The position numbers were made by a program, and so were the translations under genes. Positions 6,301-26,208 of a stretch of DNA of 28,239 nt are shown piece by piece. The notes beneath the pieces were generated by a model. The model saw only the letters and a program-made list of their open reading frames with translations, ran no database searches and was not told where the DNA came from. Origin of the DNA: Saccoglossus kowalevskii (Eukaryota > Hemichordata > Enteropneusta > Harrimaniidae); the NCBI RefSeq assembly GCF_000003605.2, contig NW_003147771.1:122194-150432 (forward strand), read 5' to 3'. How positions within the stretch are numbered: the stretch's first letter is position 1; each line of letters starts with the position of its first letter.

Positions 6301-9300
6301 ATCCTACCATATTAGGAAATGCGAATTCCAAATATGGAATGACTACGCGCGTAAGCGTCCTCCGATCATAAAAAACAAAAACATGGCACCCCTGAGTTTG
6401 ACCAAACCTAATACAAAGAAGTTCGTTAAATCTGTTTTAAAATTTTTTAAAACAAACTCTTGAAATTCATATTTCTTAATATAGTAAGATGAAAGCACCC
6501 CATAAAATACCACAAAATTACGGCACGCTGTAACTTATGGCGTTACGGTGACAGACGTATAACAATACACATTATTAAACATCTGCCATTGTATTGCGAA
6601 AAGTTACAACATGCCATAATTTTGTGGTAATGCATCGAATATCAGCATTCTACTATATTAGGAAAAGCACATTTCAAATAGGGATGGATTATGCAGTATT
6701 TCCAAAATAAACACTTTTTTTTTCTATTTGTAATGCACAAATTTTAATAAATATTACAATTTTTTTTGACTCTGAATGCTTCAACTGAAACAGTTATCCT
6801 TTCCCTCGGAGCTTAGTGGAATGTAAGAAATCGTGACGTATGGCTCAAATTGGCTCTTGGTTACAGGCTTTTAAAATCAGGATTCATAGCAATTTATTTT
6901 GTTCGCGTCCTATAGAAAGTGGTCGGTTGTTTAATAAGAATATAATAAGATTATAATAAGGATACCACAAAGTATACATTCAGACAGTACCATCTCTTTC
7001 TGGTATCCTCGCAATAACCTCTGATTATACATGCCATGCAAAGCAATGCTTACCTTTACATCCTCATCCATCTTCATAATCTTCTTTATCCTGGCTAGCG
7101 GTAACTCCTGTTGTTTAAAATGATCCTAATTTAAAGAGAGAAAATACAGAATCAATATTCACATTAGTACCATGTTTTAGACGCTTAATCAGTCATATCT
7201 GCATATCGGCTAGACCCAGTTGCATTCAAAGATATGAGACACCTAAATTTAGTATGAACTAATGTAATCCACACATGCACACACAAAATATTACCATATA
7301 TGGTACTTCGTTGGGGAATTGAGATTATGACCTTTATTTAACCTCTTTGAACACCAAAATAAATTTTAATCCCTATTCATGCGATTACCAGTAAATATAT
7401 GTAGGGGGCTGGTTGTCGCGCTTTTTAAAGTTAGAATGCTACTCACAAGTTTTTTACGCATATTTCAGTGCATATGGCAGTAGCAATATTTTGTGTCAAA
7501 TTATGACAACAATTAATTTAATATTAGTCATCAGTATGTGAACTATTTTTTGATTCACTGTCAACCTGATTTTTTTGAGAAAATGGTAAAATAATGTGCA
7601 TAAAATGCAATTTTAGCAGTGATGGACCACAATAAAAACACATTTTTTTTTATAAAAAAAATACATATTTTGTCAATTTTTTAATACTTCCAGACATCAA
7701 AAAGTACCATGTAAGTGAATTTAATTTGTTTTCACCATATGCCACAGAACAAAGTTTTGAGATGTTGAGATACATGTATATCTGTTCGATAGAAAACATA
7801 AATCTTTTATTCCATATGAAATATCAAATATGTGAAAATAACAATATTTCTGTGTAGCATTCTACCTACAGTATTTGTGGATTTGTGATGTGAACTGGTG
7901 GTGAAAAGATTAAATAGTGAGCTACTGAAATTAACAGCACATAGAACAATTGATCATGCTACAAGGTCTTCACAATTGATCATGCTACAAGGTCTTCACA
8001 ATTGATCATCCTACAAGGTCTTCACAATTGATCATGGTACAAGGTCTTCAAGAGTTGCGAGAAAATTATGAAAACATTCAAAACTAAAAATCATATATAA
8101 AAAAAATTATAATAAAATTATGTTCTACTCACAGATTTTAGATTCCTAATGTCATTTATTTGTTTTGCCCAGAATGATGCTAGTTGTGACTGTGCTTCAG
8201 TTTGTACTGTATTGCCAGCTGGCTGGGCAGCCGCTGCTTGGAAAGTAGTCTCAGACATATTGCAAAGTTATTTTTCAACCTGTATACACACAAGAAAACT
8301 GTGTAAAAAGTTATACAGCCTAATATATGCTAAGGGTGAACATCCAGACATTTTTATTGCCTGACAACCATCATCGTTTAAACAATTGTTGAAAACTCTC
8401 AGAGAACTTTGGGCTAGTTGTTAAAAATCTCCTGACAAGTATAACAAATACCCCTACAAGTGCAACGTATACGTGCTGTTTTTTTTATTTTAACGGTTTT
8501 TGACTGCCTCTTCGACCAACGTTTTACGTACAAATACTTGATACATGTCCAAGCAGCATAGAAGGTTCTATGATATAACATCACCTCAAAAAGAGCATAG
8601 TTTTCAATATGCCAAACACAGCCTTTACATGTAATTGGCCAGTTGACCCCATGGCAGTCAACTACTGTAAAAGGGTTAATTATTCACTGGGTTTAAATTT
8701 GGCTTATTTCGCTGACTAAAAAATGCGCTAAACTAAAACCTAGTGAATATGTAAAATTTAGCATAGAACACATTATCTAAATGATAAAACCGTGAATTTA
8801 AAACCCACTGAATATGCCTGAAATGGTAAATCAGAGAAATTTAAACCCAGTGAAAACTAGTCATTTTACAGTAGTTAAAATGGCATATAGTTAATGTTAT
8901 AGGGAAAAATTATATTTCTTTAAAAGGCACCAAGACAAACTTATAGGGCATCAAGGCAATTGTCTTTAAGTTTGATGCTTTCATAACATTCAAGCAATGC
9001 TATACTGTTGAAGGGTTTGAACTTTAGAGTTGAGATGGCATCCAATGATAAAAATGTCTCGGTGAATAGGAATAGCATATAGGAAAAGTATCTATTTTTA
9101 AAGGGGCAAATTGCCTCATTGGAGTTCAAGTCATAATGAGTATAAAACAATCCTTGTTTGAAAAATACTTGTAAACAGACATTTTCACACAATAATAATC
9201 GTAAACTTAAATCTTATATTTGACGATGTAACAAACTAGTAAAGTGCATTGGGCTGTAATTACTGAACTATAATTCATCAAGCAAACAATATGTTGCAAA

Positions 9301-15639: not shown

Positions 15640-16107
15640 TTAAAGTTTTCTGTATTCCATGGCTTTAAGTAGATAGGTCCCCATACATTTAATTGCCTTG
15701 GAGTCCTTGTTGCTCATCAAAAATATAAAATTACTCAATTTATCTCCTGCATTAGTTAATGTAATTTCTGTGAGCAATTCATGTCTAATATGTTTGTACC
15801 GATCACATTCTAAAAGGAAGTGAACTTCATCTTCTATTTTATTTTGGGAACATAAATTACAAATTCTTTTTTCAATGGGAGTTTTTGGCTGTGTGTGCCT
15901 TCCTTTTTCAATAGCCAAACAATGGTTACTTGTTCGGAAGCGTGACATGCAGACTTGATGTTTTTTCGGAAGACAATTTAAGTATGACTCAAAATTATAA
16001 GTGTTTTTGAATTTTGCATATGTTCTTAGTTTTGTGTTTTCTTGATTGACATTCTGTTTCCAAAATGTAATATAGTTTTCTTTTAAAGTCTTATCAATGT
16101 TTATCAA
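15640..16107 (-). pseudogene. LINE ORF C-terminal region, frameshifted from the RT
   Basis: 155 codons continue the LINE protein after a frameshift at about 16106. The frame is opened by TTG and an in-frame stop lies just upstream, so it is not an independent gene. Residues about 83-101 give CNLC-(9)-H-(4)-C inside RICNLCSQNKIEDEVHFLLE, then CDRY. This CCHC-like motif is typical of the C-terminus of many LINE proteins. It ends in AMEYRKL before the untranslated tail. Confidence 0.8.
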
Positions 16108-17105
16108 CTAGTTTGAATTCTTGAGTCAATAACTAAATTCTGAACCGATGAACACCATGGTAAATTGAATTTCATTTGTTCATAATATGCTTGTTTTGTA
16201 AGACATTTATCTGGAAGCCCTTGTATGCGTAACCAATACTTGATAAGGTTTTTCTTGGTGTCTATTAGTAATGGGAAACAGCCCAACTCTGCCCTACAAG
16301 CTAAATTTGCACCAAATTTATTTAGGCCTAGAATATTTCTACAGAATTTCAAATGTAGTTTTTCACTTGTAGTTTTGTCCCATTTGTTTTCATCCAAAAC
16401 TTCAATTCCCCAAATTTCTGAACCATAAATGAGTACCGGAAGAATACATGTTCTGAACAGATAGATAAATGTTTTACAGTCGCATTCAGGTGGAATGTGT
16501 CTTAACATTGCATATAAGGCTCTGTTGGCTTTATCTGCCATGTTTTGTCTGGCTTCAGTAAATTTCCCATTGGACTGCATTGTAACACCTAAGTAATTAT
16601 AGGAGTTAACACAGTTGATATGATTTCCAAGATATAGAAATTTATCATGTGTTTTTAANNNNNNNNNNNNNNNNNNNNNNNNNNNNNNNNNNNNNNNNNN
16701 NNNNNNNNNNNNNNNNNNNNNNNNNNNNNNNNNNNNNNNNNNNNNNNNNNNNNNNNNNNNNNNNNNNNNNNNNNNNNTTGTTTGTTGTGGAAGTAAAACT
16801 AGGTCATCTGCGTAGAAGAGTGAGCTAATTTTAGTGTCATTTAGTGAAACATGGTCTATTGAACTATCCTGTAATACATCATTTAAGTCATTAATATAGA
16901 TGTTAAAAAGCATAGGGCTGATTACACAGCCTTGTTTTACTCCCTTAGTTGTCTCAAAAACAGAAGAAGTCTTGTTTCCAAATCGTATGCAGGCCTTTGT
17001 ATTTAAGTACATATATTTAATAATATTATAAATTTTCCCGTCTATACCACTGTTCAGAAGTTTGTAAAATAAACCATTTCTCCAAATAGTATCGAATATG
17101 ACCAT
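16104..17105 (-). pseudogene. LINE reverse transcriptase fragment (contains assembly gap)
   Basis: The 333-codon frame contains the RT core: FDTIWRNGLFYKLLNSGIDG (residues about 4-23), GVKQGCVISPMLFNIYINDL (55-74) and the catalytic YADD in SLFYADDLVLL (98-101). After the gap come YNYLGVTM and the thumb-like segment CILPVLIYGSEIWG. The first residues replace the usual KAFDT with VIFDT, so the frame begins mid-domain. It ends at a TGA (16106-16104), where the reading continues in another frame. Residues about 110-149 are unknown because of the N run. It is a dead copy; its function in life would be copying element RNA into DNA. Confidence 0.88.
16659..16777. other. Assembly gap, 119 N
   Basis: 119 unknown bases lie inside the LINE reverse transcriptase. 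The protein on both sides is in the same frame if the stated length is correct. Confidence 1.
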
Positions 17106-17881
17106 CTGTTATCGCCAACATTTTGCATATCATTGTCAGATACTAGTGGGTGTCAGTATTGACGAGTGGTCATTGAGCATAATCCAATTCACATTAAGAA
17201 TTTATAGTAACAACGTGTCACGATGACGTCATAACGCATCCTCATCACGAGAGACATGTTTTCGAAAAAAATAAATCGGTTTATGTTACGTGTAATCCTT
17301 GTCTAGGTTACCCCATAACGGCGCAGCCGAAGACGTCAACCCAGAAGGAATTCCATATGATACATGAACTCCCGTTCTATCGCAATCAAACACGCCGAAC
17401 ACAAATCCCATAATCCTCTGTAACGAATCCAATGAAACATAGTTTCTGCACGATCTGATCACATAGCTATTGACCACGTGACACCACGCATAATTCTAAT
17501 GACATCACCACAGACAAAAAAGACGGAACAAATATTTTCAAACAACCACCCTTTTATTTATGACTAATTTATTATATTTTATTACAGAAAAATTAGTTTA
17601 ACTCAGGTAAGAGACATCATTCAGCTCTTACAATGCCATATAAAATGTAAATACTGATTTCACTGCAAATACCGGAATAAATATAATTATCTTGAATTTA
17701 TCATTAGAGTCTTTAGATCGTGCAATATAACTTGCGGAATTATGAAAGCATTTTTTAACCAATTAGCAAACTGAAACGGTCTTCATAACGTTACCCATAC
17801 TGCGTTCTAGAGGGCGTAGTATATGAGTCTATAACTTCAATGTGTTCCTTTTTCAGCCATCGGTTGATCTGTGCAACAATA
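17106..17881. other. Intergenic, no gene supported
   Basis: A 63-codon minus-strand frame at 17286-17477 has more balanced composition than its surroundings but no recognisable domain, and no splice partners that I can support. A TGACGTCA palindrome lies near 17224 and a CTCF-like TTCTAGAGGGCGTAG at about 17805-17819. Confidence 0.4.
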
Positions 17882-20025: not shown

Positions 20026-20695
20026 GTAAGTATAGTTTTTTTTGTTCGTCTTCATTCATGACTTAGGTAATAATTAATGCTTTCACGGCGTACTTTATAC
20101 CTCAGTACATTCTGTACGACCAATTATACAACGAGAAGTATTTCCCCACCAAACATATGTCGTGGAGTTGGAAGAAATCACATATCACAAAAGTAACAAT
20201 GACCGACACATCAAATCAAATCTTCAACAAATCTTCAAACAACAAGTGGGATGAACACGAATTGGGATGAACACGAATCAACAGTATAGTAGATTGTCGG
20301 CCCAAATGTATAAATTACACGAAAAAAATCATCGTGGGCGAGTGAGTGGACTGAATTTATTGCCCAGAAAGCCTTGAAAAGAGGTGCGTATATTCAATCC
20401 CACTAGCGGCCAACCAAAGACTTTTTTGTCGATGATTAAACGTTTTTTTTCATTTCATTCCGTTTCGAGGAGCTTCCCATCTCATTATTATCGAACACAT
20501 AAGATAACACAATAGTATACAGATCTCAAACAATAGAAAAAAGATGAAACGAGCTGTTAAATAAACACAGCCCATCACACCCTTGTCCATATATGAATTT
20601 GAGACATACGCTATAGTTAGTTAGTTCACAGTCCTTTTATATTTTCAGGTCCCACCAACAAATTATAAAGCGTCACGAGTACTGACTTACTTGGA

Positions 20696-20762
20696 ATGGA
20701 GATTAAGAAGACATTTACGTTGGTGATGTGCATGGCATCACTGGTGCACGTATGCTATTCAG
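20696..20762 (+). CDS. Lectin exon 1: signal peptide
   Basis: It encodes MEIKKTFTLVMCMASLVHVC followed by YS and one base of Gly. There is a short basic n-region (K4, K5), a hydrophobic core and a likely cleavage near CYS/G. The exon ends TTCAG before GTATGT at 20763. Its last 52 bp, with the donor, form the first unit of a tandem array reaching 21172. Confidence 0.9.
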
Positions 20763-23700
20763 GTATGTACTATACATTTACGTTGGCGATGTGCATGGCA
20801 TCACTGGTGCACGTATGCTATTCAGGTATGTTCCAGACATTTACGATGGTGATGTACATGGCATCACAGGTGCACGTATGCTATTCAGGTATGTTCCAGA
20901 CATTTACGATGGTGATGTACATGGCATCACAGGTGCACGTATGCTATTCAGGTATGTTCCAGACATTTACGTTGGTGATGTGCATGGCATCACAGGTGCA
21001 GTATGTTGTTCAGGTATGTACGAGACATTTACGTTGGTGATGTGCATGGCATCACAGGTGCAGTATGCTGTTCAGGTATGTACGAGACATTTACGTTGGT
21101 GATGTGCATGACATCACAGGTGCACGTATGCTGTTCAGGTATGTTCCAGACATTTACGTTGGTGATGTGCATCAAATCTCTATTGTCAATATTACATACT
21201 TTCATATTGTCCTTTCACGTCCAAACTGTTTTTATTATTGGGGATAGTACACAGCAAATAAGATTATGTTATTGTTACCTATCTTACCAAACATTTCACA
21301 TTTAGTATAGAATAACTCTCTTTTCTGTCGGCGACGCTCAAAATACACCGGTTAATGTGTACCTGTTTAAAATAGTATTTTGAAAATCAACTTTTTTCCT
21401 GGTATTTTGTTCTATTTAAATTATATTCTAAATTGACAGCCCATGGAATCCAAAAAATTGTTGCTACGGGGTAAGCATTGGAGCATCCAAACGAAATAGA
21501 ATTTGTACCCCACCCCAAATAGGAAAACAGTACTCATCAAGACGTGGGCGGCAATATTGTATATGATGCATAAGTATTGCTATACATTGCGCTTTATAGT
21601 ATTATAGAAAGCTCAAAGCTTTAACACTATGAGAAGGTTTTATCATGGGAACGAGGCTGCCATGCCGAAATATTCTATATATCATCGTGTTGTAAACATA
21701 GTAGTGTATTAGTAGTTATCACCTTAACATTTTCTGTTGTGTTGTCATAGTAGCATACTAGTAATAAATGGATTGTAAGTGGCATTTGCAATTTGCAATT
21801 AAAACAGTGATTTTCAATTAACTTTACCACACAGGTTTGTGCGAGTTAGCGGAAGACACAGTAGCAACACAAAGCAGTACCCTCGAGGATGCATCAGCAG
21901 AACGAGCCATCGACGGAAATGACGTCAACATTTATAATATGGGCAGCTGTACTCAAACTTCCGCCGAACACCAACCATGGTGGATGGTGGATTTAGGCAG
22001 ATCGCAGATAGTACACCATGTTGTTGTAACCAATCGTGGGGACTGTTGCGGTAAGAATACATTAATATAACAATGATATTTTTGATACAATTAGCTAAAT
22101 TAAAGGACGGTGGTCGTCGCGCCACGCATGCGCGAGATATGGGTCTCATATAAACAAAGATGGCGACTTTGACTGTTGCGCAGATCAACAAATACAAACT
22201 GAGAGTTTTAATTAGGGATTTTTAGATGATTGGAAGTATCGAAAGAGTCGCCGTCGGTATAATTAGTGCAATTAGTGAAATATCAGGGGGAAAACTTTCT
22301 TCTCCTCTGGGTTCTCCACACGTGTCAGGGGGGAATATCGTCTCGTCTCTCTATTGCGTCCCCTTGAGGTGCGGGATCGGGAAAGTCACTTATTAAGCTT
22401 TTACAGTCAAATAGACGCACACAACAAAATACGTTTCAACTCTCGTCTTAGTTGGTCAGTCGAGTGCTCTATAAGACACAGCGCCCTGGGGAAAAGTCCC
22501 CAAGACTATCGCAAGGCTGACCCAAGACTCGCCCAAAACTACATCTCAAGACTGCCTCAAGACTGCCCCAAGACTGCGTCTCTCCTCGTGTACTCGCCAA
22601 GACCAACTAAAATAACTTTATTCACCTTCAAAACCTTAACCAATTACAAAGCAGTTTAAAGACTCTAGGGCGTAACTTTCAATCATACAGCCAATCACAC
22701 TAAGTACTGAACACGTCATATCTTTTGATTAATTGTTCACCACATTAGTAACTGGGAATACCAACTGTCAGAAATAGTAGTCCGAATAGCGACGGTTATC
22801 TCGTAATTAGTTCCAAATCACTGAGTCGAGTTCCGTCCTGGACCTCGCATGGGCCTAAACGATGACAGACATAACACAGCCATTCGCTAGTAATCAGCTA
22901 ATTAAGTCGATTAACAGATACACGCAAACAATTTCATCATAGAAAACTCATACTTGTCATTTCCATTAGAAGAGCGCATTGGTTTGTGGGAGAAATCAAT
23001 GCTTAGTATCAACACAAATATCGCACATGCGCGGCGCAACGACCACCACCCTTTAATCTTTTCACCACCAGTTCTTTCTTTTCATCACAAATTCACAAAT
23101 TAGTCCTATTTATAGTCTGTACTTTCCTTTAGAAGATTTTGTCTTTTGGCTTCAAAATTAGGGTCTATTTCCAGAAATATTGAAGAATATAAGAAAACAA
23201 GTGCAGAAAAATTTGGGCGAAAATATCTGGTTGTGAAAAGATTAAGATTCTGTCACGGTTAATTCACGTATTGAGTCAAATTCGCTGAAATGAAAACAAT
23301 GTGTTTGTTTGTTATTTTATCAGAGAAACGTCTCGATGGCGCTGTTGTAACCGTTGGCGACACTGCCGATCATCTTGCCAATCCGCAATGTGGAAATCAG
23401 GTAGACTTTGAGAAACAGAGCTATGATTCAAAAATAAAATTCCTCTGCGATGAAAACCAGGTTGGAAGATACGTCGGGGTTTACCTAAAGGACCGCCATG
23501 GTCCACTCACTTTGTGTGAGGTTGAAGTATACGGTAAATACATTTCTTGTTTGTTAATACTTTGTTATATTGTAGAGCACAGTCACGGTAAATAAAATGC
23601 CTTGTCTAATGTTGCAATGACGCTGAAAACACTGACTATTTCTTATTCACTTGCAGGTGGCAAAAAAGTTGGAGGTATAGTACATATTATCACTCTGTTT

Positions 23701-26208
23701 AACCATGCATGCATGTATATCGTGGTTTATAAATATAATTTCAAAAGTTGAAAATATTATAAATATACTGCGATATAAATGTGGAATATAAGTAAGCAAG
23801 ATAATAGGGACATTGTGGGTGGGCGTGGTTCAGTTCAGTGCATCGATTGCGGATATTTCCAGAGTTTAATCGGGAATGCACATTGCATCTAATGGGGTGA
23901 ACCAATTGTATACATCAAACTGCCCGAATGTGAAAATGTAAAACAACCATTAGTTGCTTGTTATTTATTCGACGAAATGTAATGTCACAAGTGAAGATAT
24001 TGTGGATCTCTGCTGGACGGGGTACTATCTGAGTAATCCAGCAACTTTTAGGCTCGTTCGAAGCTCATAATGTTAATGGCTCGTATATAAAATAAATCGT
24101 GCGATTCGATATGTTTCCAATCAAACATTTGCCTGTCGTATGGTGTATAGATCGTTGGTGGGCTGGTTTTGCGTATATTTGACGTGACGCTGAAACTAAT
24201 TTACATTTAACGACGCCACAGGTTGCCTTTTATGGACAAATTGGATGAATAATAATGACAAATCTGGAAATGTGGACAACGAAACCATCTCGGCGTCCTT
24301 AGCTACGTATCCAGATACAATGTGTGAAAATCCTACTGGGATAGAAGCCAGAACGGTTGGAAGTCGCATACCAGCTGAGTCTTCTAATCAAGTATTTGCT
24401 GAATATAACCTAGAAGAAGGTTTTCTGTGTCGTAGCGCAGATCAAGCACAGGGCCAGAACTGCTTTGACTACGAAGTACGATACTGCTGCGCAGGGGGTA
24501 CGTGTTCAAATTGTCATACCACTATATAATTGATTAGTCTTAGCGTTGTTTGAAATTGTCAAACGATAACAATCAGGGTAATTATGCATGTTTAGTGATA
24601 ACAATGTCATTTACGTTACCCTGGGTAATGTTGATGATCATACCGAGAAGCCAATGTGTCTATATTTTGATATATGCTTTTCCGTAAACACGTTGTCATA
24701 GAAATAATGTACTACAACAACTGAGCATGCTCATTGGAATTACATATAGGTGTATATGTACGGGCAAATGACGAACATATAAACACGCACACACAAGATT
24801 CGAACTCATGATGGCAGCCACTGTGAACAAGCGCGATTCTATGACTTAAACGGGTGACACAGTCATTGATATCGTTTTGATCTGTTCTCGCGGGATTTCA
24901 CCATATTGTAGATGGCAAACGACTATACAACCACATTTGTCAATCTGAACGACATATTGACGTCACAGATTCACCCATCACTTGAGGGCGCGATTTATAT
25001 TTATCTGTGAACATCTCGAAATTCTTGTGACTCCAAATCAAATCCGTCATCGGATTTATTTCCAGTTAGATGCTCTTACCTTAGATTAAATATATAGTGT
25101 ATCTAAATGATTTGAAGATATTAAGTATATTTTGACTGAGCCGCTTTTCTAGATCAACAATTGTCGCCTGAGTTGCGCCCTCCGCGGTGCTCTAAACCCA
25201 ACACAAGTAGGGCCTGATGCCGTTTGACTGGCGAGAGCGCCATTCATTGAAAAGTGATAATTCCCATTACAGGTGGAAATAACGCAGTAGTGATTGCAGA
25301 GAAGGTTTCCCATAGCGAGGCTGTCGGGAAGTGTGAATCAAAGGGAATGTCGATGTACAAGGTTCATGATAAAACGAGTTTAGCCCACGCACTCTCCACT
25401 ATCAACCAAAGTGGTATTGCCGCTAATAATTTCTGGATTGATGGGACATTCGGAAAAAATAGACGTATTAACTTCAACGAAGGCACGCATGCATCTTTGG
25501 AGGACATGAAACCATTGTTCCATAGGGGTGAACCAAATGGAAGTGGTGATTGCCTGCACTTCTGGTGAGTCGTCCATACATGTGTTTACGACCACGTTGT
25601 TCGCTCACAACAGTAAAGTCATACACATATTTTATAATAACCGAATATAATTGTAGATATTTAGAAAAAAATACTTTCTGTAATCACGAAACCCTCAATA
25701 TGCTTTGCTAATTAAATTGGTATTATTTTCAAAGTGTGGTGGTCGTCGCGCCACGCATGCGCGAGATATGGGTCTCATTTGAACTGAAAGATGGCGACTT
25801 TGTTTTTTTGCGCAGACCAACGAGTAAAAATTGAGACGTTACCAAGCATTAATTAGGCAATTTCAATGATGATTGGAAGATATCGAAGAGTCATCGATGG
25901 TACTTAATGCATGTTGCGACCAGTTCAAAGCGCATTGAATTGTGGGAAATCAATGTTTATCAACATAAATGTCGCACATGCGCGGCGTGACGACTGCCGC
26001 CCTTTAAAAATAATACCAAATTAGTTAGCAAAACATACATCCTGTACATACACTAACGGATACCATTTTTTTATTTCTATAACTCACATACTATTGTGAT
26101 TTAAACAAATAAAATTCATTCATCTCTTACAGGTATCGATCTGGGTCAGGGTTGTCCTTAGACGATGGTGACTGTGATGTAAATCAATATTATTTGTGTA
26201 TGCACTAA
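20696..26208 (+). CDS. Secreted lectin: F-type lectin + mucin WxxW + C-type lectin domains
   Basis: Seven exons join exactly into 384 codons plus stop: 20696-20762, 21835-22050, 23324-23533, 23657-23674, 24222-24497, 25273-25564 and 26133-26208. All borders are GT/AG; introns 1-5 are phase 1 and intron 6 is phase 2. Order: signal peptide (1-22); F-type fucose-lectin domain (about 25-164, with CTQT, PWWMVDLG, NRGDCCEKRLDG and LTLCEVEVYG); a short linker (165-170); a Mucin2 WxxW/CysD-like domain (172-260, WTNW at 175-178, ending CFDYEVRYCC); and a C-type lectin domain (about 268-384, FWIDG, EPN at 349-351, cysteines 283, 356, 374 and 382). Such lectins are secreted and bind sugars on microbes or mucus. 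This particular combination I do not recognise as a named protein. The start has a good Kozak context (GGA before ATGG), and no earlier ATG lies in its exon. Confidence 0.93.
20711..21172 (+). repeat. Tandem repeat of signal-peptide exon plus 5' splice site (63/62 bp, about 7.4 copies)
   Basis: The unit runs from GTATGT through ACATTTACG(T/A)TGG and TGCATGGCATCACAGGTGCA to TTCAG. Copies follow the donors at 20763, 20826, 20889, 20952, 21014, 21076 and 21139 (spacing 63, 63, 63, 62, 62, 63). The copies at 20826 and 20889 are identical. Every unit keeps the TTCAG/GTATGT splice-site sequence. The first four donors are in the same phase. The 62-bp units lack one base (GCAGTATG instead of GCACGTATG). 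Unspliced, the array reads openly to a stop at 21040. Confidence 0.97.
21835..22050 (+). CDS. Lectin exon 2: F-type lectin domain, first half
   Basis: 216 nt, phase 1-1, between CCACACAG and GTAAGA; residues 23-94. It contains ATQSST, AIDGN, SCTQT (60-64), HQPWWMVDLG and VVVTNRGDCC (85-94). In F-type lectins the CTHT histidine and the RGD arginine contact fucose. Here the histidine position is Gln63, 26 residues before Arg90, the usual spacing. Confidence 0.95.
22100..23056. mobile_element. MITE family 2, long copy (TTAA-type) in lectin intron 2
   Basis: The ends TTAAAGGACGGTGGTCGTCG then CGCCACGCATGCGCGA, and the inverse of TCGCACATGCGCGGCG then CAACGACCACCACCCTTTAA, form inverted repeats of more than 30 bp with TTAA at both ends. 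It is 957 bp against about 279 bp for the copy at 25729. The extra 700 bp (about 22260-22960) looks inserted and has no coding signal that I recognise (the 101-codon frame at 22354-22659 is unsupported). Confidence 0.8.
23053..23245. mobile_element. MITE family 3, complete copy in lectin intron 2
   Basis: TTAATCTTTTCACCACCAG (left) is inverted at the right as CTGGTTGTGAAAAGATTAA, with one mismatch. It is 193 bp, with TTAA at 23053-23056 and 23242-23245. The left TTAA is shared with the end of the family 2 element at 22100-23056. It ends 78 bp before exon 3. Confidence 0.85.
23324..23533 (+). CDS. Lectin exon 3: F-type lectin domain, second half
   Basis: 210 nt, phase 1-1, between TTTATCAG and GTAAAT; residues 95-164. 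EKRLDGAVVTVGD completes the RGD-x4-R motif (Arg97). NPQCGN, FLCDENQVGRYVGV and LTLCEVEVY follow, as expected for the C-terminal half of the F-type jellyroll. Confidence 0.95.
23657..23674 (+). CDS. Lectin exon 4: 18-nt microexon, linker
   Basis: It lies between CACTTGCAG and GTATAG and is phase 1-1. It encodes the linker GGKKVG (165-170) between the F-type lectin and WxxW domains. Skipping it would keep the frame. It is supported by splice sites and frame only. Confidence 0.7.
24222..24497 (+). CDS. Lectin exon 5: Mucin2 WxxW / CysD-like domain
   Basis: 276 nt, phase 1-1, between GCCACAG and GTACGT; residues 171-262. It starts GCLLWTNWMNNND with the WxxW motif, a known C-mannosylation signal. 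CENPTGIEAR, EEGFLCRSADQ and CFDYEVRYCC follow, with six cysteines (172, 205, 240, 251, 259, 260). One whole domain on one symmetric exon fits exon shuffling. Confidence 0.92.
24860..25005. mobile_element. Fragment of MITE family D
   Basis: It shares TTGATATCGTTTTGATCTGT with the reverse complement of 3843-3862 and ends in CACTTGAGGGCGCGATTTATA, like the inverted end of the copy at 3670-3941. One end is missing. It lies in intron 5 of the lectin gene. Confidence 0.5.
25273..25564 (+). CDS. Lectin exon 6: C-type lectin domain, main part
   Basis: 292 nt, phase 1-2, between CCATTACAG and GTGAGT; residues 263-360. It contains EKVSHSEAVGKCESKGMSMY, FWIDGTF (the WIGL-like strand), the EPN motif (mannose-type calcium/sugar site in C-type lectins) and GDCLHFW. 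Confidence 0.94.
25729..26007. mobile_element. MITE family 2, short copy in lectin intron 6
   Basis: The left end GTGGTGGTCGTCGCGCCACG and the block GCGAGATATGGGTCTCAT match 22107-22150. The right end TCGCACATGCGCGGCGTGAC ... CCCTTTAA matches 23023-23056. The left TTAA has decayed to TTCAA. It is 279 bp and non-coding. Confidence 0.82.
26133..26208 (+). CDS. Lectin exon 7: end of C-type lectin domain and stop
   Basis: It follows CTCTTACAG and encodes YRSGSGLSLDDGDCDVNQYY then LCMH, stop TAA 26206-26208. LDD (369-371) stands where WND is usual. The final two cysteines (374, 382) complete the domain disulfides. A GTGAGT donor follows three bases after the stop. Confidence 0.93.

Follow-up and report, generated by a model that had tools for sequence, protein, structure and literature searches.

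What does a gene gain, if anything, when the end of one of its exons is multiplied, splice donor included, into a tandem repeat? The question is raised by a predicted lectin gene of the hemichordate Saccoglossus kowalevskii, within a stretch of 28,239 nucleotides of contig NW_003147771.1 (the whole of which is hereafter called the window). Seven donors identical over nine bases, spaced in 62-63-nt steps, there face one predicted acceptor, so that the locus amounts to a natural test of the choice among equal donors, and the frame of each donor's product is directly readable from the sequence. The initial annotation left two readings side by side: a ladder of splice sites by which leader length is controlled, and a neutral minisatellite that arose out of a coding exon. 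We conclude that repeat growth, with the array as its by-product, is a likelier account than a designed switch.

A minisatellite across an exon end

Tandem Repeats Finder reports an array of period 63, 7.4 copies and 94% matches on the + strand at 20709-21172 (464 bp). This is a minisatellite by the usual definition of head-to-tail copies of a 10-100 bp unit, a size range taken from the accessible part of PMC11506328, which is concerned with transposons. Each unit consists of 54 nt of leader exon (53 in units 5 and 6) and 9 nt of intron 1, and the unit lengths run, in order, 63, 63, 63, 63, 62, 62 and 63, followed by a terminal eighth copy reduced to a 25-nt fragment. Repeat finding and unit alignment thus both bear out the earlier description of seven repeats, in 63/62-bp steps, of the end of the leader exon with its donor. 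All seven complete units end TTCAG/GTATGT (the slash marks the exon end), as had been claimed, the donor CAG/GTATGT being alike in all over its nine bases. The + strand of the window contains TTCAGGTATGT seven times, and none was listed for the - strand. The last exon bases of the seven donors are 20762, 20825, 20888, 20951, 21013, 21075 and 21138; the positions given previously for the first four (20763, 20826, 20889 and 20952) are correct, and denote the first base of GT, one above the last exon base.

The 54-nt unit pattern, at up to 3 mismatches, matched 3 copies in the window and none in 100 dinucleotide shuffles. Away from the lectin gene the window holds two further tandem arrays, at 7946-8050 (26 bp x 4.0) and 621-991 (157 bp x 2.4), so tandem growth is not confined to the donor array.

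The predicted host gene

Splice sites and phases yield a gene model of seven predicted coding exons (Table 1) and a protein of 384 aa, ordered as a hydrophobic leader, an F-type lectin domain, Mucin2_WxxW and a C-type lectin domain. All three domains of the predicted protein exceed their Pfam cut-offs, the F-type lectin domain as PF22633 with 61.3 bits against a cut-off of 27.8; a near-identical stretch resembling exon 3 found no Pfam match when searched alone, nor did the open frame at exon 6. Among proteins of known structure, the predicted protein best matches the F-type lectin FBP32 (E 5.5e-49). The fucose motif of F-type lectins is H-X24-RXDX4(R/K), from which some F-type domains deviate, according to the portion of PMC5712786 at hand. 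In the predicted lectin RXDX4R is kept (RGDCCEKR), extending into exon 3, and the motif His of 1k12 (GSCTH) aligns to Gln (GSCTQ) in 21942-22050 of exon 2, for which reason sugar specificity may differ; given that deviating F-type domains exist, the protein is classed by domain and not by fucose binding.

The first ATG of the leader exon lies at 20696 and the exon encodes MEIKKTFTLVMCMASLVHVCYS, a leader by hydropathy only. An acceptor-like TTTTCAG at 20642-20648, preceded by a tract of 72% pyrimidine, would open the exon; a TATA-like stretch, recognised by eye, overlaps this site, which makes the 5' end uncertain, a transcript start near 20649 being the alternative to an acceptor there. On this predicted gene model and the Pfam matches, the anatomy first proposed for the locus (exon end, donor, phases and lectin identity) was right.

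Table 1. Features of the donor array and of the predicted lectin gene, in window positions
Feature	Position	Strand	Basis
Minisatellite, 63-bp unit x 7.4	20709..21172	+	Tandem Repeats Finder, unit alignment
Leader exon (predicted, first coding), ends at donor 1	20649..20762	+	splice sites, frame, hydropathy
Donor 1, taken as native exon end, phase 0	20763..20768	+	motif, frame, U1 pairing
Donor 2, in phase, +21 residues	20826..20831	+	motif, frame, U1 pairing
Donor 3, in phase, +42 residues	20889..20894	+	motif, frame, U1 pairing
Donor 4, in phase, +63 residues	20952..20957	+	motif, frame, U1 pairing
Donor 5, frame shift 2, premature stop within exon 2	21014..21019	+	motif, frame, U1 pairing
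Donor 6, frame shift 1, first-ATG frame ends within array	21076..21081	+	motif, frame, U1 pairing
Donor 7, frame shift 1, first-ATG frame ends within array	21139..21144	+	motif, frame, U1 pairing
Exon 2 (predicted), F-type lectin first half	21835..22050	+	splice sites, Pfam
Exon 3 (predicted), F-type lectin second half	23324..23533	+	splice sites, Pfam on whole protein, alignment to 1k12
Exon 4 (predicted), 18-nt linker microexon	23657..23674	+	splice sites and phase only
Exon 5 (predicted), Mucin2_WxxW	24222..24497	+	splice sites, Pfam
Exon 6 (predicted), most of C-type lectin domain	25273..25564	+	splice sites, Pfam on whole protein
Exon 7 (predicted), coding part: C-type lectin end and stop codon	26133..26208	+	splice sites, frame

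Introns 2 and 6 of the lectin model hold one element each (22099-23057 and 25700-26036) with imperfect terminal inverted repeats, of 46 nt at 83% and 68 nt at 82% respectively, both carrying GGTGGTCGTCGCGCCACGCATGCGCGA near one end; they look like small DNA-transposon derivatives. Elsewhere in the window, a retroelement reverse-transcriptase frame on the - strand (15643-17108; RVT_1 E 1e-14 for the piece 16779-17108) is broken at 16659-16777 by an assembly gap of 119 bases. Glutamine-rich exon-like frames, also on the - strand, occupy 158-2353; presumably they resemble NF-YC, three pieces having no Pfam match and the one piece compared with PDB reaching a best E of 0.82.

Seven equal donors and their products

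Predicted pairing with U1 is -8.0 kcal/mol at all seven donors, within the range of -5.5 to -9.1 kcal/mol spanned by the six further donor sites that were evaluated in the lectin gene, one of which lies past the stop. Only 20 of the 1657 + strand GT sites in the window pair this well or better, and 7 of the 20 are the array donors; with the array excluded, no 400-bp stretch of the + strand starting at such a strong site has more than two of them.

Joining the donors to predicted exon 2 (21835), with translation from ATG 20696, gives lectins of 384, 405, 426 and 447 aa for donors 1-4, as expected from the shared phase and the 0, 21, 42 or 63 extra residues first noted, while the shifts anticipated for donors 5-7 turn out to be of 2, 1 and 1 nt. 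The first-ATG products of these last three are 110, 114 and 114 aa long and never enter the lectin frame. In their messages the stop precedes five or six exon junctions, and decay is expected of a message with a stop so placed. The suggestion that each unit offers in-frame ATGs for shortened leaders holds in part: leader-like ATGs are available for donors 1-4 and for donor 7, which would use ATG 21078, and the ATGs in frame with donors 5 and 6 begin another peptide (MLFRYV...). The first in-frame ATGs for donors 5, 6 and 7 are preceded by 3, 21 and 21 other ATGs.

A rival reading of these products would be a silent intronic minisatellite, in which donor 1 alone is used and the other copies are spliced out without effect. 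Donor 1 does give the shortest leader exon (114 nt, against 177-490 nt via the others, if the start is 20649) and the simplest leader, and the donors past the fourth are out of frame. Seven identical donors of equal predicted U1 pairing would nonetheless require an extra rule for exclusive use of the first, and the human IFI6 array, from what could be seen of the work on it, uses more than one of its repeats, which by analogy would speak against such exclusivity. We regard exclusive use of donor 1 as rather unlikely, if still worth serious consideration.

Variation among units and tests of constraint

The unit alignment has 11 variable columns out of 63. No difference separates units 3 and 4, which accounts for the two identical adjacent units already remarked upon, and units 5 and 6 differ by one base and have in common a frame-breaking 1-nt deletion. 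Neighbouring units differ by 3.5 bases on average and distant ones by 5.4, an arrangement equalled or bettered by 240 of the 5040 possible orders (p 0.048). Such likeness of adjacent units is a mark of local copying and suggests turnover of the array.

Tandem arrays are often mis-sized in draft assemblies. The array could accordingly be mis-assembled, or the true allele could have another copy number, and the window does contain an assembly gap, the reverse-transcriptase interruption described above. That gap is the window's only one and lies ~4 kb off; the array is only 464 bp long, its 11 variable columns distinguish most copies (not units 3 and 4), and an error would affect the number of copies and not the existence of the array. 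An assembly artefact is in our view extremely improbable.

Were the added segments useful as protein, one would expect a surplus of silent changes among the units. We find that 10 of the 11 between-unit base changes alter a residue and one is silent, the possible single changes in a unit being silent in 37 of 189 cases. The lone silent change sits past the unit 5 deletion and was scored in the consensus frame; another change counts as a stop when set against the consensus but in its real place gives TAT, since the next unit also differs. With no excess of silent changes, the added segments show no sign of mattering as protein, and we see no sign of protein constraint on the units, in counts too small to prove its absence. 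The reading frame is open through units 1-4 and lost afterwards, the unit length being a multiple of 3. At the junction of units 1 and 2 a TAT stands in place of the TAG that the bases usually found next would make. It is the only spot where a stop is avoided, and this open junction could point to donors 2-4 being used.

Of the 63 eleven-column windows of the unit, the donor block (columns 50-60) alone has no variable site; the chance of this is ~0.10, at which level we make no claim of selection on the block. RNA structure was also considered and rejected as a special feature: the region 20649-21200 folds less stably than its shuffles (z 2.35), 100 of 100 of which were at least as stable. Units 3-7 contain CACAG/GT, from which microexons of 18-19 nt could run to the unit's own donor, and these too are unlikely, the upstream tract being poor at 44% pyrimidines against 50-78% at the seven gene-model acceptors.

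The array in the genome

The 572-Mb assembly (4830 contigs) was searched with the array, the leader exon and the lectin exons. The array has one match, itself, and the leader exon has eight, all in the array (the exon itself, six other units and the 25-nt fragment), in searches whose first pass scored one candidate region and in which distant copies could be missed. Viral contigs gave no match to the array unit, and prokaryote genome contigs none to the inverted-repeat element. The F-type lectin exons have at least 126 matches, two of them from the array-bearing gene, and the next best F-type exon by E-value among the matches listed has 53-54% identity. Dense clusters of F-type lectin exons occur on contigs C4257, C352, C2403 and C3226, some matches having internal stops, and the WxxW and C-type lectin part has 58 matches, three from the array-bearing gene. 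The genome therefore holds a large F-type lectin family.

Related loci were sampled as the best 28 of the at least 124 other F-type matches (L004-L031), with ~1.5 kb on each side, which overlap to form 14 separate stretches of 67,391 bases. No recognisable relative of the leader was found in these 28 loci (42 rows from tblastn with the 27-residue leader as query, the lowest E being 0.44), nor any donor-bearing tandem array, by a scan for five donor hexamers on both strands that recovers the array in the host gene's own loci (L001 and L002). One sampled locus has a minisatellite of its own (L020:1-715, 28 bp x 25.9) upstream of a related F-type lectin exon, with none of the five donor hexamers in its unit. 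As far as tested, in the parts of the genome examined, the donor array is private to the host lectin gene.

A regulated ladder, in which donors 1-4 set leader length, and with it secretion or membrane retention, and donors 5-7 act as an off switch via decay, can be weighed against this whole body of evidence. It would draw on the four in-phase donors, the open units, the leader-like hydrophobic segment in each added unit, the invariant donor block (p about 0.10) and the stop avoided at the unit 1/2 junction. Silent changes are not in excess (1 of 11), however, the frame is broken in units 5-6, the 14 stretches (67 kb) around related lectin exons yielded no donor array, and there is no special RNA fold. 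Such regulation appears improbable, and very improbable in its full working form, a graded series of lectins with leaders of one to four hydrophobic segments whose secreted, membrane-bound and discarded shares would be set by the choice of U1 site. If the ladder were true, changes in array copy number would tune the lectin between individuals. Between the two original alternatives, the evidence (10 of 11 changes altering the protein, two frame-breaking units, no second array found in the parts of the genome examined) fits the minisatellite better; in the tests made here neither regulation nor membrane retention gains support.

Probable origin and use of the array

We favour, with reasonable though by no means full confidence, a minisatellite of passive origin by duplication across the exon-intron boundary, with leaky use of its donors. 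A 63-bp stretch running from the last part of the leader exon into intron 1 would have been duplicated in tandem, and the array would then have expanded and been partly homogenised via slippage or unequal exchange. The unit straddles the boundary, as a boundary-crossing duplication would have it, and because it contains both exon end and donor the same U1-binding site is present in every copy. Each copy would bring its own U1 site, for seven equal predicted donors within 376 nt and one acceptor at 21834. Splicing most likely relies chiefly on donor 1 or on another donor near the start of the array. Leaky donors 2-4 would yield leaders with one to three added copies of a 21-residue hydrophobic segment, and donors 5-7 early-stop messages that are probably degraded; alternative donor use is probably low-level.

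Some observations sit less easily with this passive, leaky minisatellite: the donor block is invariant, though with a chance of ~0.10, the unit is a multiple of 3, units 1-4 are open and a stop is avoided between units 1 and 2. In other systems SR proteins favour intron-proximal donors, as stated in the part of PMC5585400 available, and such a preference would here favour the damaging donor 7, which counts against our reading. The same source, to the same extent, describes two competing donors of which SRSF1 favours the intron-proximal and hnRNP A1 the intron-distal, an opposition by which the balance of donors here would, in principle, be tunable. If donors 2-4 are used, the array would show an easy way for new protein N-termini to evolve.

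Comparison with known systems

The nearest precedent for the lectin donor array is human IFI6; the structure is real, and its kind already known. What the animal lectin adds is an exon edge turned into a repeat in a different gene. The unit of the human minisatellite is 12 bp and its inserts, also in phase and near the leader, add 4 residues per step, in contrast to the 63 bp and 21 residues of the lectin array, where the frame is kept at donors 1-4 and broken at 3 of 7 (donors 5-7). The two host proteins seem to be unrelated. In both cases a minisatellite supplies several donors to one transcript, two downstream repeat units of IFI6 (6-16, G1P3) serving as donors for three mRNA species in the part of PMC4526556 (2015) available; the lectin array has the donor in 7 of 7 complete units. 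Donor use is thus reported for IFI6, and predicted for the lectin. The IFI6 / G1P3 / 6-16 minisatellite is reportedly the subject of Turri, Cuin and Porter (1995, Nucleic Acids Res 23:1854). Several other texts refer, in the parts seen, to IFI6 or to competing donors (PMC2572611, PMC3796505, PMC8724738, PMC3618361, PMC2915984). Within the searched open-licence literature, as far as its texts were accessible, no donor minisatellite besides IFI6 was found, and we claim no absence elsewhere. In the available portions of two further papers, PMC3039753 has a minisatellite that holds the transcript start, with splice donors apparently in the exon downstream, and PMC12783039 has intronic repeats with no mention of donors.

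Tandem duplication also copies splice signals in the Rogers model of intron gain, for which the accessible part of PMC4974935 gives potato RdRp and fission-yeast cases, among the latter an intron extending over four 24-bp repeat copies in one gene and over two copies in another. A new intron is made under that model, whereas here one donor is multiplied in an intron predicted to pre-exist, and the duplication is not predicted to supply both 5' and 3' splice sites, the predicted acceptor (21834) being separate. Variable minisatellites of human segmental duplications (30-bp units, mean four copies) modify exons and introns, and repeats at exon-intron boundaries may form new introns, in many cases alongside a transcript that retains the repeat, as far as the consulted section of PMC2812944 goes; those cases rest on paralogues and RNAs, while the lectin array is one locus and multiplies an existing donor. 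Finally, products of oyster bindin, itself an F-type lectin, vary via recombination and alternative splicing (PMC5712786, in the part at hand). There it is lectin repeats that vary in number and sequence, whereas in the Saccoglossus gene the end of the leader is repeated ahead of a single F-type domain.
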